A DNA stretch of 64,000 nucleotides from Kutzneria sp. 744 (GTDB lineage: Bacteria; Actinomycetota; Actinomycetes; Mycobacteriales; Pseudonocardiaceae), in contig NZ_KK037166.1 of assembly GCF_000568255.1 (NCBI RefSeq), positions 3,043,243 to 3,107,242 of the forward strand. Direction: 5' to 3'. The position numbers were made by a program, and so were the translations under genes. The notes below the pieces were generated by a model. The model was not told the origin of the DNA. It searched no databases and saw only the letters and a list, made by a program, of their open reading frames with translations. The number at the start of each line of letters is the position of its first letter. The stretch's first letter is position 1. Positions 1,619 to 18,161 of this stretch are shown here, piece by piece.

Positions 1619-2959
1619 TCAGGCGCGGTGGTGCCGGAGCACACGGTCGACCAGCGCCGGGGCGTCGCCGATGTAGTGGGCCGGGTCCAACAGGTCGTCC
1701 AGCGGCAGCTCGATCTCGATGCGACCGGCCAGGGCTTCCCGCAGGGACTTGCCGGTGGCGGCGGCCTCGCGGGCGGCCTCGGCCAGCACCTTCTTCGCGG
1801 CGGCCTTGCCCAACACCGGCGCGAGAGCCACGTTGAGCCGCTCGCTGACGATGGCGCCGTTGGAAAGGGCCAGGTTGGCGGCCATCCGCGACGGAAAGAC
1901 CTCCAGCCCCTCCACCAACTCGGCGGCGGTGCAGGCCGCGCCGCCCACCAGCCGCAAGGCCTCGCGAAGGGTCTGCCACTCGGCATGCCACGCCCCGCCG
2001 GGCCGCTCGTCCTCGGCGACCATGCTGGCCGCCAGCACGGAGACGTAAGCGGGAACCTGACGGGCGGCGGTGACGATCAGCGTGGCCAACACGGGATTGC
2101 GCTTCTGGGGCATGGCGGACGAACCGCCACGGCCGTCGGCGGCGGGCTCGGCCACCTCGCCGATCTCGGTGCGGGACAGGACCTGCACGTCGATGCCGAT
2201 CTTTCCCAGGGCCCCGGCGGCGAACTGCAGGGCGTTGCCCACATCGAGAACAGGAGTGCGCACGGTGTGCCAGGGAGCGACCGGCTCGGCGAGACCGAGC
2301 TCCTCGGCGAAGGGGGCGATCAGCGCGACACCACCCGAAACACCGGCCAGCCGGCCGTACTCCACATATGCGGCAAGGGTTCCGGCGGCGCCGGCGAGCT
2401 CGGCCGGCAGCACCAGGGCTTCGAGGCGTTCGATGGCGTCCAGCACGAGCGAGAGCCAGCCGGCGGCCTTGAGCCCGAACGTGGTGGGCACGGCGTGCTG
2501 GGTGAGGGTCCGGCCGGCCATCAAGGTCTCGCGGTGCTGCGAGGCGAGCCGGGCCAGGGCCTCGGCGCAGCGGCGGAGGTCGGCCAGAACCAGGGACCGA
2601 ACCCGCTGCACGACAAGCATCGTGGCACTGTCGAGGATGTCCTGGCTGGTGGAGCCCCGATGCACGTACTCGGCCACGTCGGCGGGCACGAGCTTCATCA
2701 ACGCCGGCACGAAGGCGACAACGGGGTTGGCCGCGCCGCGAGAGGCGACCGCCAACGCGACGACGTCGAGCTGATCAGCGGAGACGGCGGAGATGGCCTT
2801 GGCGGCGCTGTCGGGCACGATCCCGAGCCGGGCCTGGGCCCGGGCCAGGGCGGCCTCGACGTCGACCATGGCCCGCAGCCACGCCTCGTCGTCGGTCTCC
2901 CCGGCCACGGGCGTGCCGGCCCAGGTCGGGGCCAGCAAACCGGAGTCGGTACCGGTCAC
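1619..2959 (-). CDS. creD-like: Nitrosuccinate lyase, CreD-like (aspartase/fumarase superfamily)
   Basis: A 446-aa member of the fumarase/adenylosuccinate lyase/3-carboxymuconate cycloisomerase superfamily. It shows the RGSTSQDILDSA segment and the family signature GSSAMPQKRNP. The GTG start (2957-2959) overlaps the stop of the CreE-like monooxygenase as GTGA, so the two are translationally coupled. In the cremeomycin pathway this pair makes nitrous acid: the monooxygenase oxidises aspartate to nitrosuccinate, and the lyase splits it to fumarate and nitrite. By sequence alone the protein could equally be called PcaB (3-carboxy-cis,cis-muconate cycloisomerase); coupling to the CreE-like gene and the griH/griI neighbours favour CreD. 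The P1 palindrome follows the stop. Confidence 0.8.
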   Translation of the reverse strand: MTGTDSGLLAPTWAGTPVAGETDDEAWLRAMVDVEAALARAQARLGIVPDSAAKAISAVSADQLDVVALAVASRGAANPVVAFVPALMKLVPADVAEYVHRGSTSQDILDSATMLVVQRVRSLVLADLRRCAEALARLASQHRETLMAGRTLTQHAVPTTFGLKAAGWLSLVLDAIERLEALVLPAELAGAAGTLAAYVEYGRLAGVSGGVALIAPFAEELGLAEPVAPWHTVRTPVLDVGNALQFAAGALGKIGIDVQVLSRTEIGEVAEPAADGRGGSSAMPQKRNPVLATLIVTAARQVPAYVSVLAASMVAEDERPGGAWHAEWQTLREALRLVGGAACTAAELVEGLEVFPSRMAANLALSNGAIVSERLNVALAPVLGKAAAKKVLAEAAREAAATGKSLREALAGRIEIELPLDDLLDPAHYIGDAPALVDRVLRHHRA

Positions 2960-4848
2960 GCCAGCCTCCCCACGTCCGCCGCCGACAGGCTGCCTACTGA
3001 CAGCCTGGTTCGCACGGACAGCGCGGCCCGCGCGATGGCGTCGGAGTCCTCCAGCGTCACCGAGCCGACGCCGGGGCGGATACCGGCGGCAGTCACCCAG
3101 TGAACGTACTCGGTGGGCACGCCGTAGGCGAACCGAGCGGGATGCGGCCGGTCGGTGGCGTCGATCACGTGGTACGGCCGGGCGGTGACGGCGACACCGC
3201 CGCTCTCGAACGACTCGGAACCCTCGTCGGGGATGTGGAACGGCCGGCACTGGCCGGTGGCCTTCAGGTAGCGCAGCAGTGGATTGGCGCTGCGGTTGAG
3301 GTCCACGTCGGGAATGCGGGCCTCGATCAGAGTCGTGACGGCGATCGGCGGCGCGGGCACGGAAGTGGCGTCCACCATGAACATCTCGTCGAGGGAGACC
3401 CGAACGCCGGGCCCGAGCACGCGCAGCACGCCGGCCTCCAGCAGCGCGGTCATCTCCTCGATCCGGCGCAGTGGCGGCCCGATGGACAGGAAGGCGTTGA
3501 ACGGCGTGTACCAGCGGGCCAGCTCGTCACGATAGGAGCCGCCGGTGATGCCGCCGTGGTCCACGACCATGCGGATCTCGTTGCGCAGGTCCCGAAGCGT
3601 GTCCAGTGCGGCCTTCAGCGGGCTGGACACGTTGCCGCGCATGGCTTCCCGCGCGTCGGAGCGCAGATAGCCGAGCAGCCACCGCTGGTAGTCGGCCTGG
3701 TCGCCGAACGCCTTCTCCCCGTAGGGCTTGGCGATCCGCTCCCAGTTCCACCGTTCCCCTTCGGCCACGCCGAATCGGGCCAGCAACGCGGAGTCGTCCC
3801 CGTCGGCGGCGAGAAGTTCACTGTAGAGCCGGGAGAACTCGGCGACCCGGTCTGCGTGCAGGCGGTCGGCCAGCAGCGTCGCGTAGTAGACGGCGCGGGC
3901 CTCCTTGTCGATCAGCGGCCACACGTCGCGCATGAAGCGGACCCGACCCGACCGACGTAACCGCTCGATCACCGGCGGGGTGAGGAAAACCGGCGTGTGC
4001 CGGCCGACCGGGCCCTTCTGGTTCTCGCCACGGGCGTGGTGCGGCACGCCACGACGCGAGCCGGCGTACATCGCCGGCTCCAGGCCGGACGGGTGGTAGA
4101 CCAGCCCGTCGGAGGTGCGCTCGTAGCGGCCGCCCCGACCGCTGGTGAACAGCGCCAGGTAGTCGAAGAAGTTCAGGCCCAGGCCGCGCAGCGCGACCTT
4201 CTCCCCCGGCTCGATCCGGGACAGGTCGAGGTCGGCGGGATTGCTGGGCGGAATGTAGGTGAGCCCCCGCTCGGCGGCGAAGTCCCGCAGCCGGGTCTCC
4301 TCGGCCGTGAGCACGACGGGGCCGTGCCCCAGTGCGAGCACGACGGCATCGGCGTCCACAGTGGACCCGTTCTTGAGCCGCACGGTCTGCCGGCCGTCGG
4401 GCTGGTCGTCGACGGCGACAGCGGTGCCGCGATGCACGGTCACGGCCACGTCGCCGGCCCGCGCGAGCAGCCGCGTGAACACCCATTCCAGGTAGTAGCC
4501 GTACAAAGCGCGGCTCGGGTACGTGTCCGGCCCCAGCCTCGCGGCCTCCTCCCGCACCGGCGCGGGATAGTCCGCGTCGGCGACGGACCGGGCCCACTCG
4601 TACAGGCTCGGCCCCGGCACGACCGGGCCATCCAGTTCCACACTCTCGTCCGTGTACAGGCTGACCTGGGACGCGACGGTGTTCATCAGCAACGTGCCGG
4701 ACTGGCTGATCCGCCACACACTGCCCGCCCCGGGCGGGAACGGGTCGATCAGGTGCACCTCGACGGGCATTCCCGGCGCGCGGTTGGCGATGATCCGCTC
4801 CAGCACGGACGTGCCGCGCGGACCGGCGCCGATGACGCAGATCCTCAC
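2956..4848 (-). CDS. creE-like: CreE-like FAD-dependent aspartate N-monooxygenase
   Basis: A 630-aa flavoprotein starting at GTG 4848, overlapping the upstream epimerase stop (GTGA). An N-terminal FAD-binding dinucleotide motif GAGPRGTSVLE is at about residues 7-17, and a second Rossmann segment includes ALGHGPV near residue 175. This architecture matches the 'FAD/NAD(P)-binding protein' family that includes CreE, which oxidises the amino group of L-aspartate three times to give nitrosuccinate. The CreD-like lyase lies directly downstream, the classical pairing of the aspartate-nitrosuccinate (ANS) route to nitrous acid. Substrate is inferred from context. A paralogue lies at 24549-26376. Confidence 0.8.
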   Translation of the reverse strand: MRICVIGAGPRGTSVLERIIANRAPGMPVEVHLIDPFPPGAGSVWRISQSGTLLMNTVASQVSLYTDESVELDGPVVPGPSLYEWARSVADADYPAPVREEAARLGPDTYPSRALYGYYLEWVFTRLLARAGDVAVTVHRGTAVAVDDQPDGRQTVRLKNGSTVDADAVVLALGHGPVVLTAEETRLRDFAAERGLTYIPPSNPADLDLSRIEPGEKVALRGLGLNFFDYLALFTSGRGGRYERTSDGLVYHPSGLEPAMYAGSRRGVPHHARGENQKGPVGRHTPVFLTPPVIERLRRSGRVRFMRDVWPLIDKEARAVYYATLLADRLHADRVAEFSRLYSELLAADGDDSALLARFGVAEGERWNWERIAKPYGEKAFGDQADYQRWLLGYLRSDAREAMRGNVSSPLKAALDTLRDLRNEIRMVVDHGGITGGSYRDELARWYTPFNAFLSIGPPLRRIEEMTALLEAGVLRVLGPGVRVSLDEMFMVDATSVPAPPIAVTTLIEARIPDVDLNRSANPLLRYLKATGQCRPFHIPDEGSESFESGGVAVTARPYHVIDATDRPHPARFAYGVPTEYVHWVTAAGIRPGVGSVTLEDSDAIARAALSVRTRLSVGSLSAADVGRLA

Positions 4849-5783
4849 CGCGCGACCTCCGACAGGACCTGGCAGATGCCGTCTTCCCAGGTCGGCACGG
4901 TCGGACGCCAGCCGAGCTCGCGACGGGCCTTGGCGTTGGAGGCGCCGCGCTGGCGGGTCTGCTGGTAGGCCCCGTACCAGCCGAGCAGCCGCTCCCCCAG
5001 GTCCACGGGGATGCGCTTGGGTTCCGGCGCGCCGAGCAGGTCGGCGTAGCCGGGCAGCCAGGAGCGGGCCGGGGCGGGGGCGTCGTCGACGATGTTGAAC
5101 ACGCCGGTGGCGGGGTGCCCGACCGCCAGCACGGTGGCCAGGGCGGCGTCCCGGACGGTGACGAACGAGGTCAGCCCGGCACCGTCGCCGACCAGCGGCA
5201 ACCGGCCCAGGTGCACGGCCTGGCCGATGGCCCCGGACGCGTCGTAGAGGGTGTACTGGCCGTACAAACTGCCGTACCGCAACACGATCGGCGCGAGGTC
5301 CGCGGCGTCGAGCACGGTTCGTTCCAACGCCGCCACGGCCTGCACGGTCAACGCCCAGGTGGCGTCCGGGGCCTCGACGTACAGCGGCGCGTCCTCGGCC
5401 AGCACCGGACCACCAGACGGAGCCGTGGCGAAGGCGATGCTCTGCGCCACGATCCGCCGCGCGCCGGCGGCACGGGCCGCGTCGACCAGGTTGGCCGTGC
5501 CGACGCGGCGCACGTGCGCGGTCCGTTCGAAGACCTCCCAGCGGGTGTCGCCGCTGACCGGCCGCAACGCGGTCACCTGGTGCACCACGACCTCCGGCCG
5601 CGCGGCGGCGACGGCCGCCACCAGCCCGGGCCCGTCCAACAGGTCGCCGGTGACCACGGCGTCCGCGTCCAGGTCCTGGACGGGACCGCGCACCAGCGCG
5701 GTCACGTGGTGGCCTGCCTTCCGCAGCAACGGAAGCAGCTCCCGCCCGAGCACCCCGGTCGCACCGGCCAGCAACACCCGCAT
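4845..5783 (-). CDS. NAD(P)-dependent epimerase/dehydratase-family reductase (atypical extended SDR)
   Basis: 312 aa from ATG 5783, two bases after the upstream stop. The N-terminus has the GATGVLG nucleotide-binding motif (residues 7-13) and the protein is otherwise NmrA/epimerase-like. The usual catalytic YxxxK is not evident at the expected place, so it may be a reductase working by another mechanism. In diazotisation-dependent deamination pathways such as ava, an NAD(P)H-type enzyme replaces the diazo group by hydride, and this gene is a candidate for such a step. A sugar-modifying role is less likely because no glycosyltransferase is nearby. The function is inferred from context only. 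Confidence 0.6.
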   Translation of the reverse strand: MRVLLAGATGVLGRELLPLLRKAGHHVTALVRGPVQDLDADAVVTGDLLDGPGLVAAVAAARPEVVVHQVTALRPVSGDTRWEVFERTAHVRRVGTANLVDAARAAGARRIVAQSIAFATAPSGGPVLAEDAPLYVEAPDATWALTVQAVAALERTVLDAADLAPIVLRYGSLYGQYTLYDASGAIGQAVHLGRLPLVGDGAGLTSFVTVRDAALATVLAVGHPATGVFNIVDDAPAPARSWLPGYADLLGAPEPKRIPVDLGERLLGWYGAYQQTRQRGASNAKARRELGWRPTVPTWEDGICQVLSEVAR

Positions 5784-5785
5784 GA

Positions 5786-6274
5786 TCAGCCTCTCCCTCC
5801 GACCCGCATCAGCAGGCGGCACGCGGGATCCCCGTGCCGCAGGCAGCCGGTCGCCCTGTTCTCCGTCAGCGTCACCCCGAGCCCGTCCGACCAGCCGGCG
5901 TGGATCTCGGTGCAGGGGCACCGGTATCCGTCCAGCGAGCCGGCCATCCGGACCATGACCACGGCGAAGTTCTGCCGCATGGTCAGCTCCAGCAGCTCGT
6001 CGTCGAGCGCCGTCACGCCGCCGTCCCGCAGCTCGTTCGGGAACATGATGTCGGCGCAGCGCTCGTACAGCTTGGCCAGCGTCGCCGAGTCGGCGTCGGC
6101 CACGGGCTCACCGTGCGCCCTCGCGACCTGTTTTCCCACGCGGGTGGCCACAAAACGCATGGCCTCGGCGTTGATCTCGTTGGCGACGTCCTGGCCGAAG
6201 CGGCTGGCGACCCCCTGGTACCAGCGGGCGTCGTGCAGCCACCACAGCCGGTACACCTCCATCGGAGCCCCCAC
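5786..6274 (-). CDS. DUF6125-like small protein of unknown function
   Basis: 162 aa from GTG 6274 (an ATG four codons later is possible). It has a conserved-looking WWLHDARWYQGVA segment near the N-terminus and a Cys-rich C-terminus (CPC, GCLRHGDPAC) reminiscent of ATC-hydrolase/DUF6125 proteins that end in a GDPxC motif. The gene lies one base after the diazotase-like ligase stop, within the overlapping operon. No catalytic role can be assigned. The Cys and His residues could bind a metal or an acyl group, but that is a guess. Confidence 0.55.
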   Translation of the reverse strand: MGAPMEVYRLWWLHDARWYQGVASRFGQDVANEINAEAMRFVATRVGKQVARAHGEPVADADSATLAKLYERCADIMFPNELRDGGVTALDDELLELTMRQNFAVVMVRMAGSLDGYRCPCTEIHAGWSDGLGVTLTENRATGCLRHGDPACRLLMRVGGRG

Positions 6275-6275: not shown

Positions 6276-7943
6276 TCACTTCCCCTCGGCGCGCGCGACC
6301 AGCTCCTTGGCCCGTTCGCGCATCACCCGCTTGAGCACCTTACCGGTCACGCCGACGGTCACATCGGTGTAGTCCATCCGCAGGGCCCGCGTGACCGGCG
6401 GAAATCCGTGCTGCGACAACACCTCGTTGACCCACACGGTCAGATCCTCGGCCGGGTCCTGCGCCCCCGCGAACTGCAACAACACGTACGCGTCGCCGAT
6501 GCCGTCGCCGTCCCAGTCGGCCTGCACGCCGTCCTCGACGATCGCGGTGACGGTGCAGTCCACCAGCTCCGGGCGGTTGGCCAGCAACAACTCCTCGGTG
6601 CGGGTGCTGAACACGATGCCGTCGCGGGTGCGGATGGCGTCGGGAACCCGGTCCAGGTGGTAGAAGTTGCCCTCCTTGTCCTGGTACGACAGGTCGCCGG
6701 TGAGCCAGTAGCCGCCCAGCCGCAGCCGGTGCCAGGTGATGGAGTCGTTCCAGTATCCGGGAGTCAGCGTCGGGGACTTCACGCCGAGCCGCCCGACCTC
6801 GCCGGCCGGCAGCGGGCGGCCGTCCTCGGACAGCACGGCGGCCTGGGCGAAGCTCATCGGCTTGCCGATGCAGCGGCCGAAGGAGGCGCTGCCGGGCTTG
6901 TGCCCGTTGTGGAAGATGGAGTATCCCGTCTCGGACGAGCCGAGGCCGTCGGTGAACACCGAGCCCGGCACCCGGTGCGGCTTGAAGTCGTCGCCGATCT
7001 CCTCGTGGCTGCCCAGGCCGACCAGCACCCGGATGTGCGCCTCGTGGGCGGCGTCGCCGGTGTTGTAGTACGCCTCGATGCTGGAGGTGTCCCATTGGGA
7101 CAGATCGGCCGTCGCCATCTGCGCGTAGGTGCCGGAGAAGCCGAACACCGTGGTGGGCTTGAACTTCTGCACGGCGTCGAGCACGTCCTCGCCGCGCTGG
7201 CTGGACAGCATCATCACCGGCGAGCCCAGCAGCAGGCCGAACATCATCACCGACATGGCGGCGTTGTGGTTGCCCGGCAGGGCCACCAGCAGCCGGCCCA
7301 TGGAGCCGCCGACCGAGAGCTTGAGCCGGTGCAGCTGGGCGTAGAGCAGGGTCTCGTGGGTGTGCGGCACGGCCTTGGGCATGCCGGTGGTGCCGGAGGA
7401 GTGCGAGATGATGATCGGGTCGGTCTTGTCGTGCCGGTACGGCCAGCCCGTCGCCGGCAGCTGGTCGCGGTGCTCCGGCCGCACGTCGGAGGCCGTGATG
7501 ACGAAGCCCAGTTCCCCGCTCTGGGCCAGGGTTTCGTACCGCTCGGCGTCGGTGACGGCCCCGGACGCGCCCTGCCGGCGGATGTACTCGCGGGCGATCT
7601 CCGGGCGCAGCTTGGCATTGGCGAAGGACGGGATCGCGCCCAGCGAGTTGATCGCCATGAAGTTGATGGCGAACTCGGTGCTGGACGCCGTCAGCACGCC
7701 GACCACGTCCCGCGGCTTGATACCGAGGCCGGCGTAGAAACCGGCGTAGGTCTCCACGGCCTCGTACAGCTGGCCGAAGGTCAGCACCTCGGGCCGGCTG
7801 CCGTCGGGGGCCAGCCAGGTGCCGTCGGTCCACAGCACCGGCTCGTCGGGCGACCGCCCGTACTCCTTGATGCGGTGCAGCACATTGCCGGCGCCGAGCT
7901 CGGTGTCCGCGTTGATCCGGGCGCGCTCTTCTTTGGAAATCAC
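6276..7943 (-). CDS. AMP-binding ligase, candidate ATP-dependent diazotase (CreM/CmaA6/AvaA6-like)
   Basis: 555-aa ANL-superfamily enzyme from GTG 7943, overlapping the preceding stop as GTGA. Core motifs are present: SHSSGTTGMPKAV (A3, near residue 185), SSETGYS (A5), a GYWLTGDLSY segment (A7) and a C-terminal TGKVLKRVMRE lysine motif. ANL proteins of this group in cremeomycin, avenalumic acid and p-coumaric acid clusters activate nitrous acid and diazotise an aromatic amine. Co-occurrence with the CreE/CreD pair and with 3,4-AHBA genes supports that role here. A simple aryl-CoA or acyl-ACP ligase remains possible; there is a second, frame-damaged ligase in the same operon that would fit substrate loading better. 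Confidence 0.7.
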   Translation of the reverse strand: MISKEERARINADTELGAGNVLHRIKEYGRSPDEPVLWTDGTWLAPDGSRPEVLTFGQLYEAVETYAGFYAGLGIKPRDVVGVLTASSTEFAINFMAINSLGAIPSFANAKLRPEIAREYIRRQGASGAVTDAERYETLAQSGELGFVITASDVRPEHRDQLPATGWPYRHDKTDPIIISHSSGTTGMPKAVPHTHETLLYAQLHRLKLSVGGSMGRLLVALPGNHNAAMSVMMFGLLLGSPVMMLSSQRGEDVLDAVQKFKPTTVFGFSGTYAQMATADLSQWDTSSIEAYYNTGDAAHEAHIRVLVGLGSHEEIGDDFKPHRVPGSVFTDGLGSSETGYSIFHNGHKPGSASFGRCIGKPMSFAQAAVLSEDGRPLPAGEVGRLGVKSPTLTPGYWNDSITWHRLRLGGYWLTGDLSYQDKEGNFYHLDRVPDAIRTRDGIVFSTRTEELLLANRPELVDCTVTAIVEDGVQADWDGDGIGDAYVLLQFAGAQDPAEDLTVWVNEVLSQHGFPPVTRALRMDYTDVTVGVTGKVLKRVMRERAKELVARAEGK

Positions 7944-8440
7944 TGCGGGTCCCTCTCCAACAGGAGCGCTGTCGCGCCGTCGGTGGTCGGTGGGGTGCGC
8001 CCGAGCAGCCGGTACGCGGCGGCGGTGCGCTCGTCGGCGGCCAGCTCCACGGTGAGCAGCAGCACGGCGTCCAGCTCGGGGTCGGCCAGCAGCAGCTCGG
8101 CGGTGTCCCGCGGATCATCGTCCACTGTGGACATGCTGAGCAGTGGCCCGGTGAGGTCGAACTCGCGGCTGAGGTAGCCCAGCACGGCGTTGGCGGTGGC
8201 CTGCATGAACAGGATGGCGTTGTGCACCTGCCCGTCGACCAGCAGCCGGCTGGCCAGGCCGGTGGTGGTGGCGTCGCCGATCAGGCTGCACACCACCACG
8301 GCCAACCGGGAGCCGTCGAACTCCCGGCCGGTCAGCACTTCCACCGCCGCGCGGTACACGAGCGGGTTGAAGTTGGACTCGATGAAACCGGGCACCGGCT
8401 CCAGCGCCCCGGTCAGCTCCGCGCCGGCTACGGTGATCAC
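7940..8440 (-). CDS. Half-length ketosynthase-like protein (chain-length-factor-like partner)
   Basis: 166 aa from GTG 8440, overlapping the ketosynthase stop by GTGA. The fold looks like the N-terminal half of a thiolase-superfamily ketosynthase (NFNPLVYRAAVEVLTG, a region with QATANAVLGYLSR, and LDAVLLLTVELAADERTAAAY). It has no active-site Cys, no HGTGT and no C-terminal half. Similar short proteins sit beside ketosynthases in highly reducing type II PKS sets, where they may act as a non-catalytic partner or chain-length factor. The fold assignment is by eye and tentative. Confidence 0.5.
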   Translation of the reverse strand: MITVAGAELTGALEPVPGFIESNFNPLVYRAAVEVLTGREFDGSRLAVVVCSLIGDATTTGLASRLLVDGQVHNAILFMQATANAVLGYLSREFDLTGPLLSMSTVDDDPRDTAELLLADPELDAVLLLTVELAADERTAAAYRLLGRTPPTTDGATALLLERDPQ

Positions 8441-9555
8441 GGCTGCTCCAACAGGATCGCGGTGTTCATGCCGCCGAACGCGGCGTTCAGGGACAGGACC
8501 CGGTGCAGCGCAAGCCGTCGCGGTCCCTCAGTCACGTAGTCGAGGTCGCAGGCCGGATCCGGGGTGGTGTATCCGGCCGTGGGCGGCACCGCGCCGTCGA
8601 GCAGGGCCAGCAGCGACACCACGAACTCCACCGCGCCGGAGGCCTCCAGCATGTGCCCGGTGGTGCTCTTCGTCGAGCTGATCGGGGTGTTGGTCCCCAG
8701 CGCCGCCCGCAGGCCGTTGGTCTCCGCGCCGTCGTTGGCCGGGGTCCCCGTGCCGTGCGCGTTGACGTAGTCCACACCGGACACTCCGGCCCGGCGAAAG
8801 GCCTGCGAGACGGCGGAAGCGATGCCCCGGCCCTCAGGGTGCGGCTTGGCGATGTGGAAGGCGTCGGAGGCGACGCCGAAGCCGGTCATCCGGGCCAGCA
8901 CCTGAGCGCCACGGGCAAGCGCGTGCTCCTCGGACTCCAACACGATCGCCGCCACGCCGTCGCCCAGCAGCAAACCGGTGCGGTCCAAGGAGAACGGCCG
9001 GATGACGCCGTCCTTGGACAGGGTGCGGCCGGAGTCGAACTTGGCCATGTTCTCCTCCTCGACCAGGTACGCCCCCGCGCACAGCGCCACGTCCTGCCGG
9101 CCGGCGGTGATCAACCGCCAGCCGTGGATCAGCGCCGAGGCCGAGGCCACGCAGGCGTTGGTGAACGCCAGCCGTGGCCCGCGAAAGCCCACCCGGTCGG
9201 CCACCGCGCCGGCCAGCACGCCGGGAACGCCGGCACCGGGCGAAAAATCCAGCCCGCGGGAGTACCGGGTCACCGACTTCCAGTCGCCGGCCGAGCCGAG
9301 CAGCGTCGCCCCGGCCGTGCCCGGCGGCAGGCCGGCCATGTCCACGGCGTCGTCGGCGCAGCCGCCGAGCACGTCGACCAGATCGGGGTCGCCGGCCGCG
9401 GCGGCGGTCATCGGCGTCCGGAACGGCGTCGGGTCGAAGCGGTTGGCCGGAGCGAACACCTGGGTGCCGGTGAACACCCCGTCCCGCAACGCCTTCTCGC
9501 CCCAGCCGAACGCCGTGAACACGCCGTACCCCGTGACGACGACCCCGCCGGTCAT
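8437..9555 (-). CDS. Beta-ketoacyl-ACP synthase (type II PKS ketosynthase)
   Basis: 372 aa. The start is ATG 9555 (MTGGVVVTGYG), overlapping the upstream ACP stop as ATGA; longer upstream readings are not protein-like. The complete catalytic triad is visible: Cys135 in TNACVAS, His267 in NAHGTGTP and His301 in STTGHMLEASG. It would condense malonyl-ACP with an acyl or aryl primer. Neighbours are one ACP directly upstream, a second ACP 0.3 kb upstream and a half-length KS partner downstream, so this is the extension module of the cluster. A fatty-acid FabF role is less likely given the operon. Confidence 0.85.
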   Translation of the reverse strand: MTGGVVVTGYGVFTAFGWGEKALRDGVFTGTQVFAPANRFDPTPFRTPMTAAAAGDPDLVDVLGGCADDAVDMAGLPPGTAGATLLGSAGDWKSVTRYSRGLDFSPGAGVPGVLAGAVADRVGFRGPRLAFTNACVASASALIHGWRLITAGRQDVALCAGAYLVEEENMAKFDSGRTLSKDGVIRPFSLDRTGLLLGDGVAAIVLESEEHALARGAQVLARMTGFGVASDAFHIAKPHPEGRGIASAVSQAFRRAGVSGVDYVNAHGTGTPANDGAETNGLRAALGTNTPISSTKSTTGHMLEASGAVEFVVSLLALLDGAVPPTAGYTTPDPACDLDYVTEGPRRLALHRVLSLNAAFGGMNTAILLEQP

Positions 9556-10149: not shown

Positions 10150-10163
10150 GTCGGTGGTTCCTC

Positions 10164-11541
10164 TCAGGCAGATAGGGCGGATCCGGAGACCAGCGCGGCC
10201 GCGCGCAGCGCGCTGCGGTCGCGGATGAGCTTCCCGTTGGGGGTGCGGGGCAGCGTGGGCAGCACCCGGACCAGTTTCGGCACCTTGTAGTCGGCCAGCT
10301 GGGACGCACACCAGCGGACGAGGTCCTCGGCCGCCAGGTCGGTGTCCTGTGTGGACACATAGGCCTCGATGACGTCGCCGTGCACCAGCACCGCCTCGGC
10401 CACCGAGCCGTGCCGGGTCAGCACGTCCTCGATCTCGGTCAGGTCGACCTTGAGACCGCCGATGACCACCAGCGAGTCGCCGCGGCCGAGCAGCCGGACC
10501 GTGCCGTCCACGGTCAGCTCGGCCCGGTCCCGGGTCCGCAGCCAGCCGTCGACGTAGCGGTCCTGACCGTCGGCCGTGAGGTACGGCGTCGCCGGCAGCC
10601 GCACCTCGATCTCGCCGTCCTGGATGCGCAGCAGGATGCCCGGGGTGGCCGGGCCGACCGACGGCCGCAGCCGCCCGCTGACGTCCATCGCGATCACGCC
10701 GGTCTCGGTGGTGCCGTAGGACTCGCCGACGCGCACCCCGTACACCTCGTGGAACCGGTCGGCGACGGCCGGCGGCATCAGCTCGCCGCCGGACACCGCG
10801 CACCGCAACGACGGCAGCAGCGGTGGATTGTCAGCGGTGGCAAGGAGTTCGTAGTGGAACGGCACCCCGAACACCGCGCTGACCTCGTGATCGGCGGCGG
10901 CCCGCAGGATGTCGCTCGCGGCGACCTTGGCCGCGAACACCACGCCCACGCCGGCGAACAGCGAGTGCAGCAGCCCGGCGATCAGGCCGAAGCTGTGCGC
11001 CGTGGAGCTGAGCAGCAGCACCCGCTCCCCCAGCGCCGGCATGCCGGGTGAGCTGGTTGAACCGCCGGATCTCGGCGGCGATCGAGGCCTCGGGCCGCCC
11101 GACCACCTTGGGCCGGCCGGTCGAACCCGACTGAACTGATCAACCGGTGATCGCTGCTGCGGGCAGGCGTCGAACGCTTCTCGGTGACGAGCTCGTGCCG
11201 CGAGCGGAAGCTCAGCCGGGGCAGCCGGCCGCGCCGGCCCGGACCACGTGCTGCGGCCGGCACAGCGCCCGCAGCTGCTCGACCTCGGCCGGCTTGAGGC
11301 GGTGGTCGACCACCATCACCTGCGCGCCGAGCTGCCACAGCGCCAGGAGCACCTCGATCTGGGTGAAACTGGGCGGCACCTGGAGGGCGACGGTGCTGCC
11401 CTCGCGGACGCCGGCCGAGGCGAACAGCGCCGCCTCCAGCTTCACCGCCTCACGCAGTTCCCCGTGCGTCACAACGTGATCCGCGATCAGGTAGGGCAGG
11501 TCGTCGTGGTGTTGGGCCAACAGGTCGGAGACGAGCCGCAT
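10164..11541 (-). pseudogene. AMP-dependent aryl ligase broken by about three frameshifts (as assembled)
   Basis: An ANL enzyme of about 455 aa if repaired. The N-terminal part (MRLVSDLLAQHHDD, from ATG 11541) stops near 11212. The next stretch reads in another frame to about 11130, then the P-loop SGSTGRPKVVGRPE appears in a third stretch to about 11040, and the C-terminal part (SSTAHSFGLIAG, SYGTTETG, YVDGWLRTRD, TPNGKLIRD) runs cleanly to the stop at 10164. All core motifs are intact, so the breaks may be sequencing errors. By position, next to an ACP and the 3,4-AHBA genes, it is the likely enzyme that loads the aromatic starter onto the ACP. If the breaks are real, the pathway lacks its loading step. 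Confidence 0.75.
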
Positions 11542-11544: not shown

Positions 11545-12624
11545 TCAGCTCTCCTTGCAGAACTCGCCGATCGGGATGCCGACGTGTCGCTTGTCGGTGG
11601 CGATGTAGCCCAGGAGCTCGTCGCCCTGCTGCAACTCCGTGACGTTGCGGACCTTCGGGCCCGGGCCGAGCACCCGCACGTGCCAGTCGTCCTGCACGGT
11701 CAGGCTCACCTCCACGCCGTCCTGCGAGTGCGCGGTGATCTGCAGCAGCGGGCGGGACTCCAGCTTCGAGCGGCCCACCACCACGCGGCGGGTCTTGCCC
11801 TCGGTGTTCACGGCCAGCACCGTGCTGCCGGAACGCAGCTCCGACAGGTAGTTCGTGCGGTTGTCCGGGCCGAGCACGTACGAGTGCAGCGCGCCGGCGT
11901 TCACGCGGAACGGCCGGGTCGGCATGTACGGCAGCGGGTGCGTCTCGCTGACACACAGGACGAAGCCGGACGAGTAGGAGCCGACCAGGATGCCCTCGTC
12001 CTGCTCGAAGTGCGAGCAGGTGTCCACGCAGACCCGGTCGCCGAGGCCGACGTGGTCGATGCGCTCGACCGTCAGCGTGGACAACTGGAGGTCGTTGCTG
12101 CCGGCCTCCAGCAGCCGGGACAGCTGGAACACCTCGTTGGCGTCGCGGGGCGCGAGCAGCAGGCCGTCCGAGCCGTGCTCCAGGACGTCCAGCACGATGG
12201 TGGCTTCCTCGATGTCGCCGACCACGCAGACCAGCTTGCCGTCGTGGCGGTCGGCCGCCGCGATGACGATCTCCAGCGGGATCTTCGTCGGGTCGGTGAA
12301 GCTGACGATCGTCCACGGCAGCCGGGCCGCGGCCGTGCAGGCCAGCTGGAGCGTGCGGTCGTCGCTCACCTCGACGAAGACCACCCCGGCGTGCCCGGCG
12401 GAGATCAGCCGATCCAGCTGGTCGCCGTCGTTGACGATCGTCGTGACCAGGTCGCCGCCGGAGTCCGGTCCCAGCACCACCTTCTGCAGCGTCGGCGGCA
12501 GCGTGGCCAGCAGCGCCGGGTCGTCCGAGACGACGCCCACGATGCGGGTGTGCACGGCGGCCGCGACCACGGCCTCCAGCTGCGGCTGGGGCACGGTGCG
12601 CAGGTCGATCCAAGCGAATTTCAC
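11545..12624 (-). CDS. griH-like: GriH-like 3-dehydroquinate synthase II homologue (3,4-AHBA synthase)
   Basis: 359 aa from GTG 12624 (KFAWIDLRTVPQ) with a GGAG ribosome site 6 nt upstream. It resembles archaeal-type DHQ synthase II along its whole length (segments DQDEGILVGSYSSGF and GSTVLAVNTEGKTR). In actinomycetes this protein pairs with the aldolase GriI: together they convert aspartate-4-semialdehyde and DHAP into 3-amino-4-hydroxybenzoate. The GriI-like gene is the next gene upstream on the same strand, separated only by the TnpB element. A shikimate-pathway role is unlikely because actinobacteria use the AroB type. Confidence 0.85.
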   Translation of the reverse strand: MKFAWIDLRTVPQPQLEAVVAAAVHTRIVGVVSDDPALLATLPPTLQKVVLGPDSGGDLVTTIVNDGDQLDRLISAGHAGVVFVEVSDDRTLQLACTAAARLPWTIVSFTDPTKIPLEIVIAAADRHDGKLVCVVGDIEEATIVLDVLEHGSDGLLLAPRDANEVFQLSRLLEAGSNDLQLSTLTVERIDHVGLGDRVCVDTCSHFEQDEGILVGSYSSGFVLCVSETHPLPYMPTRPFRVNAGALHSYVLGPDNRTNYLSELRSGSTVLAVNTEGKTRRVVVGRSKLESRPLLQITAHSQDGVEVSLTVQDDWHVRVLGPGPKVRNVTELQQGDELLGYIATDKRHVGIPIGEFCKES

Positions 12625-12639
12625 TTGAACTCCAATCGA

Positions 12640-13951
12640 TGGGAGCCCGGCAGTTCACGGCCGGGAGGAGCTGAAACCGACTTGCTAGGGTGATCATCGT
12701 GAAGCGCACGGCGCCGGTTCGGTTGCTGCCGACGCCCGAGCAGGCGGTGGCGCTGCGGTCGACACTGCACGCCTGCAACGTCGCCGGGTCGTGGCTGTCG
12801 CGGCAGATGCACGCCAACCACGTGTTCGGCAAGCACGAGGCGCAGAAACGCTGGTACAGCGAGATCAAGGCTCGGTTCGGGCTGTCGGCGCAACCCGCGA
12901 TCAGGGTCATCGGCAAGACCGCCGATGCCTACGCCACGCTGCGGGCGAACCTGCGGGCCGGCAACTATGGGCCGCCGGGATCGGAGCGTCGCCGCGCGGT
13001 CGAGGCAGCCCCGATCGTGTTCCGCGCCGAGGCGGCGCAGCCGTTCGACGCTCGCTGCCTGTCCTGGCAACTGGATGAGCGGGGCCGTGGGGGCACCGTG
13101 TCGATCTGGACCACAACCGGCAGGCTCAAAGGACTGCCGCTGGTGGGTGGTGACGCGCAGGTGGCGTTGCTGCGGACGCGGCCGATCGGCGAGAGCGACC
13201 TGGTTCACCGCGACGGGGTGTGGTTGTTGCACGCCGTCGTCGACATCGCCGAGATGCCTCTGCGCGAGCCGGTGAATGGGTTCCTCGGAGTTGACCTGGG
13301 CATCGTCAACGTCGCCACCACCTCTGACGGTGATCGGATGAGCGGGTCGCGTCTGAACCGCTACCGCAAGCGTCAACTGCAGCAGCGGAAGCGCTTGCAG
13401 GCCAAGAAGACCTCCTCCGCGCGGCGGCTGCTGAAGAAACGCCGACGCAAGGAGGCCCGGTTCGCCACCGACGTCAACCACCAGGTCAGCAAGAACATCG
13501 TGGCCGAGGCTGAACGCACCGGACGCGGGATCGCCGTCGAGGAGTTGACGGGAATCCGCGCGCGGGTACGGCTTCGCAAGCCCCAACGGGCCACGCTGCA
13601 CAGCTGGGCATTCGCCCAGCTCGGACAGTTCCTGAGCTACAAAGCCCAGCGGGCCGGTGTGGTTGTGGTGCAGGTCGATCCGGCCTACACCTCGCAGACC
13701 TGTCACGTCTGCGGGCACGTCGACAAACGCAACCGCCGCAGTCAGGCGGTGTTCCATTGCGGCCGGTGTGACTTCGTTGGGCACGCCGACCACAACGCGG
13801 CGCTCAACATCGCGACACGCGGTGTGCAGCGCTGGGGCGAAGTCAAGCGTCCACACGCAGCGCCCATCCTGGCAGCCAGCCAGGACGGCAGCAGCAAGCC
13901 TACGAACCGCCGCCAGCGGCGGCCGGCAAACTCGTCCCCCCAGGGACGAGC
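12640..13951 (+). mobile_element. TnpB-only (IS605/IS607-type) element inserted between griI-like and griH-like genes
   Basis: Approximate extent. The left part holds a 6-bp inverted repeat (CCCGGC at 12646-12651, GCCGGG at 12660-12665) upstream of tnpB. The right part ends in a structured segment and an 8-bp hairpin at 13931-13950 that touches the stop codon of the griI-like gene. No tnpA transposase is present, so this is a solo or immobilised element, on the strand opposite to the host operon. Exact ends cannot be fixed without an empty site. Confidence 0.6.
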
Positions 13952-14105
13952 TCATGACGCGGTCTCCAAGAGTCGGGCGGCGGCCTGGGCGGGGTGCAGC
14001 ACGGCGGCGAGCTTGTTCATCAGCGAGCGGGGCGTCGGCGAGGTGAAGATCCGCCGCCCGACGGCGAGTCCGGCGCAGCCGGCGTCCAGCGCGGCGCGGG
14101 CGTAG
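12690..14105 (+). CDS. tnpB: TnpB RNA-guided nuclease (OrfB/IS605-IS607 family)
   Basis: GTG start at 12690 (VIIVKRTAPVRLLP). RuvC-like catalytic residues are all present: Asp202 in GVDLGIVN, Glu284 in VEELTGIR and Asp367 in HADHNAALNIA. A Cys4 zinc ribbon lies between (CHVC at 338-341, CGRC at 357-360). The RuvC and ribbon core ends near residue 380. The frame then stays open past the element's right end into the antisense of the griI-like gene, so the last 50 or so residues are probably not native and the true C-terminus may be lost. TnpB proteins cut DNA guided by an omega-RNA from the right end of their element. The intact active site suggests it could still be functional. Confidence 0.85.
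   Translation: MIIVKRTAPVRLLPTPEQAVALRSTLHACNVAGSWLSRQMHANHVFGKHEAQKRWYSEIKARFGLSAQPAIRVIGKTADAYATLRANLRAGNYGPPGSERRRAVEAAPIVFRAEAAQPFDARCLSWQLDERGRGGTVSIWTTTGRLKGLPLVGGDAQVALLRTRPIGESDLVHRDGVWLLHAVVDIAEMPLREPVNGFLGVDLGIVNVATTSDGDRMSGSRLNRYRKRQLQQRKRLQAKKTSSARRLLKKRRRKEARFATDVNHQVSKNIVAEAERTGRGIAVEELTGIRARVRLRKPQRATLHSWAFAQLGQFLSYKAQRAGVVVVQVDPAYTSQTCHVCGHVDKRNRRSQAVFHCGRCDFVGHADHNAALNIATRGVQRWGEVKRPHAAPILAASQDGSSKPTNRRQRRPANSSPQGRAHDAVSKSRAAAWAGCSTAASLFISERGVGEVKIRRPTASPAQPASSAARA
13907..13951 (+). ncRNA. Putative omega-RNA 3' scaffold / right-end hairpins of TnpB element
   Basis: Two consecutive hairpins: GCCGCC/GGCGGC-type pairing at about 13908-13924, and CTCGTCCC-CCCA-GGGACGAG at 13931-13950. 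In TnpB elements the omega-RNA scaffold covers the right end and the guide is the flanking DNA just downstream, which here is the 3' end of the griI-like gene. RNA production is inferred; only the structure is seen. Confidence 0.4.
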
Positions 14106-14758
14106 CCGACGAGGGCGGAGCCGTCCGGGTCGGCGTCGGCGGCCGGGCCGCCGGCCACGAGCACCGGGATCGGGCAGCTCGCGGTCACCTCGGCCATCCG
14201 GTCGCACGGCAGGGCCATCGAGGTCTTGACGAGGTCCGCGCCGAGGTCGGCGGCGATGTTGACCACGTGGGAGAGCACGGTGGGGTCGAATGAGTTGGCC
14301 ATGCGGGCGCCTCGGGCGTAGGCCATCGCGATCAGCGGCACGTTCCACTCCTGGCACTGGCTGGCCACCGCGCCCAGGTCGGCCAGCTGCCTGGCCTCGG
14401 TGTCGGAGCCGACGTTGACGTGCACGCTGACCGCGTCGGCGCCCAGCCGCAGCGCGTCCTCCACGTCCCCGACGAGCACTTTGGCGTGCTGGTCGGCGGC
14501 GTGCGAGGTGCCGGCCGACAGGTGCACGACCAGGGCGCAGTCCTCCAGCAGCGACACGTCGATGGCCCGCATCCGTCCCTTGTGGACGATGATGGCATCG
14601 GCCCCGCCGAGCACGACGGAGTGGATCAGCTCGTCCCAGTCCTGCATGGGCACCACCGGTCCGTCCGACACGCTGTGGTCCAGCGGCACGAACAGATGCC
14701 GGCCGTCCCCGGCGCGCGACAGGCGCCGGGTGCGAAACGCCTTCCCGGGATCGGCCAC
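13952..14758 (-). CDS. griI-like: GriI-like class I aldolase (2-amino-4,5-dihydroxy-6-one-heptanoate-7-P synthase)
   Basis: 268 aa. GTG 14758 is chosen because AGGAGG lies 8 nt upstream; an ATG 26 codons earlier has no ribosome site. It is a DhnA/FbaB-type aldolase with a DHSVSDGPV segment near the start and the Schiff-base lysine probably in DLVKTSMA. Family knowledge: GriI condenses DHAP with aspartate semialdehyde, the first step to 3,4-AHBA. It is the first gene of the long minus-strand operon, and the intergenic DNA upstream has a LysR-style palindrome. Confidence 0.85.
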   Translation of the reverse strand: MADPGKAFRTRRLSRAGDGRHLFVPLDHSVSDGPVVPMQDWDELIHSVVLGGADAIIVHKGRMRAIDVSLLEDCALVVHLSAGTSHAADQHAKVLVGDVEDALRLGADAVSVHVNVGSDTEARQLADLGAVASQCQEWNVPLIAMAYARGARMANSFDPTVLSHVVNIAADLGADLVKTSMALPCDRMAEVTASCPIPVLVAGGPAADADPDGSALVGYARAALDAGCAGLAVGRRIFTSPTPRSLMNKLAAVLHPAQAAARLLETAS

Positions 14759-14842: not shown

Positions 14843-14858
14843 ATAACTTCGCAGTTAT
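14843..14858. promoter_or_regulatory. LysR-box-like palindrome in divergent promoter region
   Basis: ATAACT-TCGC-AGTTAT, a perfect 6-4-6 palindrome located 85 nt upstream of the griI-like start, in the 321-nt region between the divergent transcription units. The cluster's LysR regulator gene (17208-18161) makes this its natural candidate target. No experimental support. Confidence 0.45.
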
Positions 14859-15079
14859 GTCCTTGCAGAGATTGTTCCGATGACCGCGCATGCAAACTCT
14901 GATGAGACTTTGAAGCGGGTCTGCTATGTGCGGCGCCAAGTTTGGTCAAGTGTCAATGAGACGAACGTCCACGCAGGCAGACGGCCTATGGTTGACCGTG
15001 CGGCACCTCGCTAGCATGACTGTCCGCGGGGCGGTGACGGCCGTGTCGACGAATATTCTTCACATGATCGGAGTCGATC

Positions 15080-15682
15080 GTGGCAATTTCCGTGCACGTT
15101 GCGGTGGCATACCACGGCGGTGCAGGACACACGGCGAGATTTGCGGGCGCCGTGCACGCCGGAGCGTCATCGGTGAGCGGCTGTGAATCGACGCTGGTCA
15201 GCGTGGACCCGATCGACGAGGCCGGCTGGGCCGCGCTGGACGGCGCCCAGGCCATCGTGTTCGGCGCACCCACCTACATGGGCTCCGCCTCGACCGCGTT
15301 CCACCGCTTCGCCGAGAGCACCTCGATGCGCTTCATGCGGCAGACGTGGCGGGACAAGCTGGCCGCGGGCTTCACCAACTCCGGCGACAAGGCCGGCGAC
15401 AAGGCCTCGACGCTGGGCTACTTCCAGACGTTGGCCGCCCAACACAGCATGACCTGGGTCAACCTGGCGCTGAAGTCGGGGTGGAACACCGCCCGCGGCA
15501 CCGAGAACGACCTCAACCGGCTGGGCTTCCACGAGGGGGCGGCGGCGCAGTCGCTGCTGGGCAGCCGCCCCGACGACGTGAACGCGGCCGACCTGGCCAC
15601 CGCCGAGCACCTCGGCCGGCGGGTCGCCGAGCACGCCCTGATCTTCGCCGCCGGTCGCGCGGCGCTGGCCCCCGTGTCGTGA
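15080..15682 (+). CDS. Flavodoxin-like NAD(P)H:quinone / FMN reductase (WrbA-type fold)
   Basis: 200 aa from GTG 15080 with CGGAG upstream. It begins with a flavodoxin phosphate-binding region (AYHGGAGHTARFA, residues 10-22) and has a YMGSASTAFHRF and AAGFTNSGDKAGDK pattern typical of NAD(P)H-dependent FMN reductases. First gene of the divergent plus-strand operon; its stop overlaps the MFS start. It may supply reduced flavin to the CreE-like enzyme or reduce a quinone-like product; both are inferences. Confidence 0.75.
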   Translation: MAISVHVAVAYHGGAGHTARFAGAVHAGASSVSGCESTLVSVDPIDEAGWAALDGAQAIVFGAPTYMGSASTAFHRFAESTSMRFMRQTWRDKLAAGFTNSGDKAGDKASTLGYFQTLAAQHSMTWVNLALKSGWNTARGTENDLNRLGFHEGAAAQSLLGSRPDDVNAADLATAEHLGRRVAEHALIFAAGRAALAPVS

Positions 15683-17196
15683 CTGTCACCAACGATCCCG
15701 TTGCGCGGCCCCGGATCTGGGCGGCCGTGCTGGGCGTCGCCGTGCTCGCGCAGACGGTGGCGGCGATGGACAACTCGGTGCTCAACCTGGCCGCGAAGAC
15801 GCTGGCCGACCCGGTGGCCGGGCTTGACGCCAGCACCGGCGAGCTGGCCTGGACGATCAGCGCCTACACCGTCGTCTACGCGGCGGCGATGTTCGCCGGC
15901 GGCGCGCTGGCCGACCGGTTCGGGCCGCGATGGGCGCTGTGCACCGGTCTCGCCGTGTTCATGGTCACGTCCACGCTGGCGGCGTTTTCGGTGACACCGC
16001 TGGAACTTGTGCTCTGCCGAGGCGGCATGGGCGTCGGTGCGGCCCTGATCACACCGGCCACGCTGTCGATCGCCTTGCGGGCCTCGGAGCCGGCGCAGCG
16101 GCCGAAGGCGGTGGCGATCTGGGCCTCGGCCGCCGCGGTCGGCATCGCCATCGGGCCGGTCGTCGGCGGGCTGCTGCTGAGCAGGCTGTGGTGGGGCTCG
16201 GTGTTCCTGCTCAACCTGCCCGTGTCCCTGATCTGCCTGGTGGGCATCGGGTTGTGGGTGCCGCGGCTGCACGTGGAGCAGCGGCGGCCGTTGGACTGGC
16301 CGGGGCTCGTGCTGTCCTTCGGCGGCCTGCTGGGCGTGGTCTACGGCGTGATCCAGATCGGCGGCGACATCGGCTGGAACTCGCCGTCCGTGCTGGTGCC
16401 GCTGGTCGTCGGGCTAGCGCTGCTAGCGGTGTTCGCCGTGCAGCAGAGTCGTTCCCGTGCACCGAGTTTCGACGTTCGACTGTTCCTGCGGCGGCGGTTC
16501 GCCGGCGGCGGGCTGGTGCTGACCGTGGCCTTCTTCGGCATCACCGGGCAGCTGTTCTACGCCTCGTTCTATCTCCAGGACGTGCTGGGGCTGAGCCCGC
16601 TCGGCGCGGGGCTGGCCATTGCGCCCACCGCAATCGGCATCCTCGCCGGCAACCTGTGGGCGCCGGCGCTGGTGCGGCGCTTCTCCGTGCGGAAGGTCGC
16701 GTCGGTCGGCATGGTCGTCACCACCGCGACGCTGGCGTCCTATCTGGTGTTCGACGCGTCCACACCGGTTGCCGTGTTCGGGCTGATGATGCTGGTGCAG
16801 GGCTTTTCGATGGGCACGGTGGTGGTGCCGGCCACCACCGCGGCCATGGACGATCTGCCGTCCGACCGCAGCGGCGCCGGCTCGGCCGTGACGTCCGGGC
16901 TGCGGCAGCTCGGCGGCACGCTCGGCATCGCCGTGGGCAGCACGATTCTGAGCGCGTGGTACCGGTCGGGCCTGCGCCCGGCGTTGTCCGGGCTGCCGGA
17001 CGATCTCGCACGACAGGCCGTCGGCTCGGTGCAGGCGGCGCTGTCCGTCGCCCGCACGGCCGGCCGGCCCGAACTGGTGGAGGCCGCCACCTCCGCGTAT
17101 CTGCACGCGATGCGGATCACCGCCGGCGTGAGCGCCGTGCTGTGCCTGAGCGGGCTGGTCCTGATCGCCGCGTGCCTGGGTGGCAAGTCCGACTGA
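15679..17196 (+). CDS. MFS drug exporter, DHA2 / 14-TM family
   Basis: 505 aa from GTG 15679, overlapping the flavodoxin stop (GTGA). It is a hydrophobic protein with about 14 predicted membrane spans, starting at AAVLGVAVLAQTVAAMDNSVLN. The DHA2 motif C-like region is seen in MGVGAALITPATLSI and AIGPVVGGLLL, and motif A in GGALADRFGPRWAL. It probably exports the cluster product and gives self-protection. Its position between the reductase and the LysR regulator is usual for a pathway-specific transporter. Confidence 0.85.
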   Translation: MTVTNDPVARPRIWAAVLGVAVLAQTVAAMDNSVLNLAAKTLADPVAGLDASTGELAWTISAYTVVYAAAMFAGGALADRFGPRWALCTGLAVFMVTSTLAAFSVTPLELVLCRGGMGVGAALITPATLSIALRASEPAQRPKAVAIWASAAAVGIAIGPVVGGLLLSRLWWGSVFLLNLPVSLICLVGIGLWVPRLHVEQRRPLDWPGLVLSFGGLLGVVYGVIQIGGDIGWNSPSVLVPLVVGLALLAVFAVQQSRSRAPSFDVRLFLRRRFAGGGLVLTVAFFGITGQLFYASFYLQDVLGLSPLGAGLAIAPTAIGILAGNLWAPALVRRFSVRKVASVGMVVTTATLASYLVFDASTPVAVFGLMMLVQGFSMGTVVVPATTAAMDDLPSDRSGAGSAVTSGLRQLGGTLGIAVGSTILSAWYRSGLRPALSGLPDDLARQAVGSVQAALSVARTAGRPELVEAATSAYLHAMRITAGVSAVLCLSGLVLIAACLGGKSD

Positions 17197-17207
17197 GGGG
17201 AACTTCG

Positions 17208-18161
17208 ATGCAGGTCGAGTTGCGACATCTCCAGGTGATCCAGTCGGTCGCGGACGCCGGCAGCATCAGCCGGGCCGCCGCCCAGCTGAGGATCGCCCAG
17301 TCCGGCCTGACCGCGCAGGTGCAGCGGATCGAACAGGAGCTCGGCGGGGCCCTGTTCCGGCGCACGCCCAGCGGCGTCGCGCTCACCGAACTCGGCCAGC
17401 ACGTGGTGGCCCGGGCCCGTGACGTGCTGGCGCAGTTCGACGATCTGGTGGAGAGCACCCGCGTGCTGGCCGTTCGGGACGAGCCGCCGGCGGCGATCCG
17501 GGTCTGCGGGCCGCTGGGTCCGATCACCCCGATGCTGGCCGGCGCCATCCAGGAGCTGCTGCCCGACCGTGAGCAGGTCACCCAGCTCACGCACACCACG
17601 GAGACGCTGAACGAGGTGCTGCACTCGTCCGACTTCGACATCGCGGTCTACGGGCAGCAGCCGTCCGTGCCGGTCCAGCTGCCGGACGGCCTGCACACCC
17701 GCAACCTGGTCAACGAGACCGCCTACATCGGGCTGTCGGCGTCACACCGGCTGGCCGACCGGATGGCGATCCGGCTGGCCGACCTGGCCGACGAGGACTG
17801 GGTGCTGCCCAACGAGAAGCTGTCCGGGCTGACCACCTCGCTGCGGCTGGCCTGCGAGGAAGCCGGTTTCACGCCGCGCTGCCGGCACCGCGGGGCGGAC
17901 ATGGCCACCGCGGCCATGATGGTCCGATGTGGACACGCCATCGCCGCGTTCTACCCGTCGGCCGTGACCGTGCCGGGCATGGTGCTGCGGCCGCTGGTGG
18001 GAAACCCGTTGCAGCGCACCATGCAGCTGGTGTGGCGACCGAACTCGCCGCTGGCCGGGCTGGCCGATCTGGTGCACGCCAAGGTGGTCAAGCGCTACCA
18101 GACCCTGGTGCACGACCATCCCGTGTACGCCGCGTGGTGGGAGTCGACGGTCAGCCCGTGA
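17208..18161 (+). CDS. LysR-family transcriptional regulator
   Basis: 317 aa from ATG 17208, 11 nt after the exporter stop with a GAGGGGAA ribosome site. The N-terminal winged helix-turn-helix (LRHLQVIQSVADAGSISRA, then AAAQLRIAQSGLTAQVQRIE) is followed by a periplasmic-binding-like effector domain. It is the likely pathway-specific regulator; the palindrome at 14843-14858 in the divergent promoter is a candidate operator. The last 11 bases overlap the convergent lipoprotein gene. Confidence 0.85.
   Translation: MQVELRHLQVIQSVADAGSISRAAAQLRIAQSGLTAQVQRIEQELGGALFRRTPSGVALTELGQHVVARARDVLAQFDDLVESTRVLAVRDEPPAAIRVCGPLGPITPMLAGAIQELLPDREQVTQLTHTTETLNEVLHSSDFDIAVYGQQPSVPVQLPDGLHTRNLVNETAYIGLSASHRLADRMAIRLADLADEDWVLPNEKLSGLTTSLRLACEEAGFTPRCRHRGADMATAAMMVRCGHAIAAFYPSAVTVPGMVLRPLVGNPLQRTMQLVWRPNSPLAGLADLVHAKVVKRYQTLVHDHPVYAAWWESTVSP

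Follow-up and report, generated by a model that had tools for sequence, protein, structure and literature searches.

A probable p-coumaric acid (cma) gene cluster in Kutzneria sp. 744, with a TnpB element between cmaI and cmaH

What compound would a bacterial gene cluster equipped for diazotisation make, and can this be told from its genes? The question is raised by positions 1619-18161 of a 64,000-bp stretch of the genome of the soil bacterium Kutzneria sp. 744 (the window, which lies in a single contig of 11,646,492 bases). A preliminary description of this DNA had proposed a nitrous-acid and diazotisation cluster of the cre, ava and cma kind, built on 3-amino-4-hydroxybenzoate (3,4-AHBA); it had mentioned over 100 ava-like clusters, a number stated in the abstract of PMC10777205, and had held the product to be unpredictable from sequence. 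We took gene limits from open reading frames (ORFs) and from relatives, with some starts chosen by eye, and assigned families from Pfam and NCBIfam profile matches, using the NCBIfam cut-offs of 975 for NF058622 and 400 for NF058621 (the curated AvaA6 and AvaA7 equivalogs), 650 for NF052556 (nitrosuccinate lyase), and 355.75 for TIGR02426 (PcaB).

All 15 genes that Kawai et al. (2024; PMC10777205) list for cma, the p-coumaric acid cluster of K. albida, have a counterpart at 1619-18161, and their order is identical: R F G on one arm, and I H A1 A2 A3 A4 A5 A6 B A7 E D on the other. Since relatives share this gene order, chance can be set aside as an explanation. Both markers of the cma subtype, cmaG and cmaR, are in the cluster; besides the cma counterparts, 1619-18161 contains a TnpB element only, and no further tailoring gene was seen there. 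Gene content, gene order, family membership, key residues, the TnpB element, and the co-occurrence of a palindrome with cmaR can be stated plainly, and the proposed kind of cluster is borne out. The region is very probably the Kutzneria cma cluster, with p-coumaric acid, formed by diazotisation-dependent deamination in which the amine would leave as N2, as its most likely product. Because an AvaA7 equivalog and the cma gene order both point to p-coumarate, the product appears fairly predictable, and the earlier view of it was too cautious. The kind of cluster has already been published; new here are the TnpB insertion, a candidate operator, and the presence of the cluster in each Kutzneria genome examined. 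The A7 reductase, the CmaB-like protein, the half-size chain length factor (CLF), the CmaG-like flavoprotein, and TnpB were all absent from the preliminary description.

A predicted diazotase and a predicted reductase are encoded on the reverse strand. The cmaA6-like gene (6276-7943) is an intact ANL ligase, a predicted ATP-dependent diazotase, which scores 1065.6 bits against the AvaA6 model NF058622 (cut-off 975), with the next-best NCBIfam model at only 147.9 bits; by these profile scores (no tree was built) it is not an ordinary acyl-CoA ligase. It matches PDB 8ztz with 1068.8 bits and is about 85% identical to the A6 of K. viridogrisea, to which 8ztz and 9ijf are identical over 551 aligned residues; 8ztz, titled just "Putative AMP-binding enzyme", is probably CmaA6. 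The cmaA7-like gene (4845-5783), a predicted NADPH-dependent denitrifying reductase, reaches 469.9 bits against NF058621 (cut-off 400). Between the two lies a cmaB-like gene for a putative helper protein (5786-6262), in the same position as in relatives, with weak similarity to ATC hydrolase and DUF6125 (Pfam, below cut-off). Of the related literature, PMC11705231 repeats the K. albida p-coumarate result, and in PMC13061610 the terms CmaA6, AvaA6, diazotase, and K. albida occur only in the reference list. Separately, another AvaA6-like ligase, which at 390.6 bits stays below the cut-off of 975, lies about 190 kb from the cluster (L070, G000:C1:2845000-2864900, at 9888-11534), beside a reading with matches to DAHP synthase, to an enzyme dependent on pyridoxal phosphate, and to the C-terminal part of L-amino acid ligase; this region is possibly another N-N or aminobenzoate-type cluster.

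Nitrite would be supplied by two further reverse-strand genes. The cmaE-like gene (2956-4848; PF13454) matches PDB 8cp2, titled only as an FAD-binding protein, with 672.8 bits; its product is a predicted aspartate N-monooxygenase and nitrosuccinate synthase of the CreE type, which would form nitrosuccinate from aspartate. Its stop is overlapped by the GTG start (taken from the sequence) of the cmaD-like gene (1619-2959; Pfam Lyase_1), a putative nitrosuccinate lyase of the CreD type that matches the CreD structure 5xny with 429.6 bits. In an alignment with a single fitting numbering offset, the CreD-like protein keeps all 14 of the checked ScCreD residues, among the active-site residues and the SSxMPxKRNP loop named in PMC13411527; the same source places the Glu/His dyad of ScCreD in CMLE also, so the residue set is not exclusive. 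Some 20 kb from the cluster, a second gene of this kind (24500-26376) encodes a CreE-like FAD protein with 37% identity to that of cmaE, and proteins like it (38-40%) occur near the cluster in five of the six other Kutzneria genomes.

The starter unit and the polyketide synthase (PKS) are encoded on the same strand, and the GriH, GriI, ketosynthase, two acyl carrier proteins (ACPs), exporter, and LysR regulator named earlier are all confirmed by family matches. The cmaI-like aldolase gene for 3,4-AHBA (GriI type, 13952-14758; NF005556, 293.7 bits, cut-off 241) has a start at 14758 chosen by eye from the spacing of the ribosome site, in an ORF open from 14836; the cmaH-like 3,4-AHBA synthase gene (GriH type) is at 11545-12624 (NF002625, 527.8 bits, cut-off 375). 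The predicted 3,4-AHBA:ACP ligase, cmaA1-like, is at 10164-11541. It is followed by the cmaA2-like ACP for the extender unit (9856-10149; family match), the cmaA3-like ACP for the starter unit (9552-9782), and the cmaA4-like ketosynthase (8437-9555), in which the catalytic Cys-His-His is present by eye. Trp38 and His41, a pair that PMC10777205 ties to ligase recognition, are present in the starter ACP (residues counted by eye).

The cmaA5-like CLF (7940-8440, reverse strand) has 166 aa and corresponds to no more than a portion of a ketosynthase's N-terminal half: its Pfam ketosynthase match has an E-value of 0.16, and its best profile match (8.9e-05) is to residues 91-199 of a 417-residue FabF chain. 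Half-size CLFs have been reported in aryl polyene systems (PMC8358021), and on that ground we reject the idea that this one is new in kind. After the PGF motif 150 residues follow in the window. In the 28 loci compared, the corresponding length is 150-194 in 15 of the 17 loci with both cmaG and cmaR (250 in L052; L054 unmatched), and 261-277 in four of the five Streptomycetaceae loci without either gene (the fifth, L041, unmatched); in L053, which has G without R, it is 232, and in L061 and L062, which are distant and carry neither gene, it is 156 and 145, respectively; A5 is missing from three loci. CLF size and cluster subtype therefore go together only in part. CLF phylogeny has been linked to chain length (PMC10777205), and how much of the C-terminal half of the CLF remains might set the chain length; we consider this improbable, given the short forms in L061 and L062 without G or R, and the 232 residues in L053 with G but no R.

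Transferring the steps of the K. albida study (PMC10777205), we can outline how the pathway may run in this strain; the reactions and the product are predictions from the gene set. I and H would form 3,4-AHBA, which A1 would load onto A3. A4 and A5, with A2, B, and G, would add one malonyl unit, and reduction and dehydration, helped by the fatty acid synthase, would give 3-aminocoumarate. Nitrite made from aspartate by E and D would be used with ATP by A6 to produce the 3-diazo compound, in which A7 would replace N2 by a hydride from NADPH; the resulting p-coumarate would be exported by F. CmaR may control both divergent arms from a palindrome at 14843-14858.

Could the same genes make something else? 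That the product is avenalumic acid, from two extensions, or an acid of another chain length, is suggested by the match of A6 to a model named AvaA6 and by the few genes that separate cma from ava clusters (PMC10777205). The identity of A5 is indecisive by itself, reaching 49-53% with the five Streptomycetaceae loci that lack G and R, and likewise only 52-59% with seven of the more distant loci that have both. The window's A5 shares 84-90% identity with its counterparts in four close Kutzneria and 65% with the K. viridogrisea protein, which is half-sized as well, whereas in four of those five Streptomycetaceae loci A5 is much longer. With the cma-subtype markers G and R also present, we reject an avenalumate product as very unlikely on the grounds of subtype and A5 type. 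Retention of an N-N bond, as a diazo compound or a hydrazone, would need the diazo intermediate to be trapped by something else; such intermediates are reactive, and N-N bonds are kept or formed in related pathways such as those of spinamycin and the tasikamides (PMC11705231, PMC11429834). With an AvaA7 equivalog above its cut-off and no extra tailoring gene seen in 1619-18161, such an end product is more improbable still, and we reject it on account of A7.

Several observations nevertheless weigh against a straightforward cma assignment. The best model for the CreD-like protein is nitrosuccinate lyase, but its score of 590.4 bits is below the cut-off of 650, and the protein just clears the PcaB model TIGR02426 (365.8 against 355.75); the cut-offs of NF006554 (381.7 against 595) and NF004631 (199.8 against 371) are not reached. 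The earlier concern that this protein might act only as a muconate cycloisomerase is eased by the far higher lyase score and the 14 kept residues, but not removed. We file it as CreD-like only, because the lyase cut-off is not reached, and the cma assignment rests on the context of E, A6, and A7 rather than on the lyase by itself. In the comparisons, the K. viridogrisea sequence stood in for that of K. albida (CP007155). A scan of the first 20 kb for the SDR motif (expected of avaA8/FabG) was empty, but this is a weak scan, which was also empty in four of the five Streptomycetaceae loci that lack G and R. In addition, the stop-start coupling of cmaI and cmaH is broken, and cmaA1 is not one frame: it has six frame-changing gaps within about 180 bp relative to three Kutzneria genomes (G109, G057, and CA-103260). 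The last two points concern the integrity of the cluster, and we take them in turn.

A small mobile element of 1334 bp, with tnpB from about 12,699, occupies 12625-13958 (forward strand) in the overlap of cmaI and cmaH. The flanks ...GCGAATTTCAC/GCGGTCTCC... are contiguous in G109 and G057 and 1334 bp apart in the window; the site is likewise empty in CA-103260 and K. buriramensis, with a one-base difference. The encoded protein has a TNB (Cas12f1-like) domain (E 3.7e-24) and an OrfB_IS605 match (E 4.8e-09), identifying an IS200/IS605-type element, and the insertion is precise, without target duplication. Of the four other copies of the element found in the genus, the three examined (in this genome, CA-103260, and G109) share the terminal CATGAC; the fourth, in K. 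buriramensis, is 63% identical. At the left end these three copies show no conservation, their match beginning at element position 60, so the left boundary is set by the empty site alone. On folding, the right end of the element is equalled by 1 of 200 shuffles and the left end by 47 of 200. TTTCAC may be the target-adjacent motif. No Rfam model reached its gathering score in the window. In two other genomes, TnpB-like stretches with 28-33% identity are located within or close to the related clusters (L058, 13641-14312; L059, 1148-1486).

In the relatives, the TGA of cmaI overlaps the GTG of cmaH at the insertion point. The window's cmaI takes its last codon (an added Ser) and its stop from the element, and the GTG of cmaH is kept; both genes remain open, with tnpB oriented against them. 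The element lies between cmaI and the eleven remaining genes of its arm and interrupts the operon: the chain of GTGA and ATGA overlaps that had been read as a single operon is broken between GriI and GriH. Falling exactly in the stop-start overlap, the insertion is a natural experiment on the importance of the cmaI-cmaH coupling.

The cmaA1-like gene, a single frame in the three Kutzneria relatives, is split by an indel-dense patch at about 11,222 to 11,048; of the two ANL ligases noted earlier, the one at 6276-7943 thus stands as an intact gene and this one does not. Is the split real? In a frame control, genes of G109 and CA-103260 matched the window in more than one frame in 4/15, 3/15, 3/12, and 4/14 cases, which include cmaA1 and the split I/H reading; in the opposite direction the control gave 1/17, 1/16, 0/15, and 1/13. 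Some multi-frame cases are artefacts of overlapping ORFs. Five stretches, four of them flagged by this control, were aligned to G109 and CA-103260. The stretch 27200-28474 has a patch like that of cmaA1, with five frame-changing events within 165 bp (27454-27618) against both relatives; 24500-26370, with the second CreE-like gene, has a single base event against both (one extra base at 24703); and 19185-20678 has two single-base events (20571 and 20615) and a 12-base change. A 3-base change is all that was found in 22100-23301, and 28548-29639 has no events. The control also flagged the window at 4-1547 and 34319-36680 (where relatives match in two frames), as well as antisense-ORF overlaps.

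The completeness of this genome is 95.19%, versus 98-100% in five of its six congeners (the sixth, a metagenome-assembled genome (MAG), has 93%). Because of the like patch in a neighbouring gene, the single-base events, and the lower completeness, an assembly error is more likely than true loss as the cause of the cmaA1 split, and the like patch also leads us to reject cmaA1 as a proven pseudogene. The cluster might still be dead in this strain, with cmaA1 a true pseudogene and the TnpB element cutting off the eleven genes past cmaI; this would concern its activity, not its identity. Six frame-changing gaps seen in none of the three relatives and a clean insertion at the I/H junction speak for such a loss, but the patch at 27454-27618, the events at 24703, 20571, and 20615, and the completeness fit the pattern of an error-prone assembly, and the remaining cluster genes are open, as are cmaI and cmaH at the insertion. 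We regard a dead cluster as possible but doubtful, and read the region as a cma cluster with a probably misassembled cmaA1 and an interrupted operon.

The second arm runs on the forward strand and comprises a cmaG-like gene for a flavin mononucleotide (FMN) flavoprotein, a proposed beta-ketoacyl reductase (15080-15682; FMN_red, 29.7 bits, cut-off 24), a cmaF-like gene for a predicted MFS exporter (15679-17196), and a cmaR-like gene for a LysR regulator (17214-18161), the last two by family match. Between the divergent cmaG and cmaI lies the palindrome ATAACTTCGCAGTTAT (14843-14858), a candidate CmaR operator. It is the sole ATAAC-N6-GTTAT site in the window (none in 100 shuffles), and the genome has a single copy of a longer form, GATAACNNNGCAGTTAT. 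We surveyed 28 loci (the window, 7 named, and 20 unnamed), leaving aside L031-L035 and L043 as duplicates from the same genomes and L044 as a chance-level match, and scored cmaR as present where tblastn gave a match in the examined stretch. The palindrome is found in all 17 cmaR loci (exact in 16, one mismatch in L051), in the extrapolated gap between G and I (in L050 overlapping the gap edge). In the 11 loci that lack cmaR, any such site has at least two mismatches; eight of these loci have an I homologue, with two-mismatch sites at its start in L037, L039, and L040. Fisher's test of exact sites against cmaR gives 5.6e-07, which is overstated, the loci being related. As the word "operator" has no occurrence in the text of PMC10777205, we take the site as unreported there. 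Predicted CmaR binding at this one operator, which accompanies cmaR wherever seen, could control the whole pathway, and the cluster could be switchable by a pathway compound, a proposal that we make tentatively. The candidate site would offer a direct means of finding out when the pathway operates.

How widespread is the cluster? In our genus sample of seven genomes (the window's own, with CA-103260, K. buriramensis, K. viridogrisea, and a Kutzneria MAG among the others), A6 is present in all seven. In the family, 45 of 297 genomes have it at E<=1e-100, 17 of them with at least 58% identity, and in a class-wide draw of 393 genomes only the window's own has it at E<=1e-170. Among 20 stretches examined, 15 (L045-L059) carry I, H, A1, A4, A5, and A6 together, and L060-L064 do not. 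The DNA adjoining the cluster is common to G109 and CA-103260, the two compared, so the cluster is at the same genomic place in both. The diazotase in every genome of the sample and this shared neighbouring DNA suggest that the pathway may be a long-kept trait of the genus, not a stray acquisition. PMC10777205 asks why actinomycetes make p-coumarate by so long a route.

The cre cluster of cremeomycin is not known to have an A7-type step. It shares the CreE/CreD nitrite pathway with the window's cluster, and its ANL-type diazotase is CreM (PMC11429834); cremeomycin retains its diazo group (introduction of PMC10777205). The aryl polyene KS-CLF pair ApeO-ApeC (PMC8358021) belongs to a different pathway, product, and host group. 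Closer is the ava cluster of Streptomyces sp. RI-77, for avenalumic acid, which shares the 3,4-AHBA starter, the highly reducing type II PKS, nitrite supply by the aspartate-nitrosuccinate (ANS) pathway, the diazotase, and the denitrifying reductase (PMC10777205); it has avaA8 (FabG) and avaC, and lacks cmaG and cmaR, according to Table 1 of that paper. The closest is the cma cluster of K. albida (PMC10777205), from the same genus, with the same 15 genes in the same order and both cmaG and cmaR; from it the window, compared by way of the K. viridogrisea sequence, differs by the TnpB element in the cmaI/cmaH overlap and by the split cmaA1.

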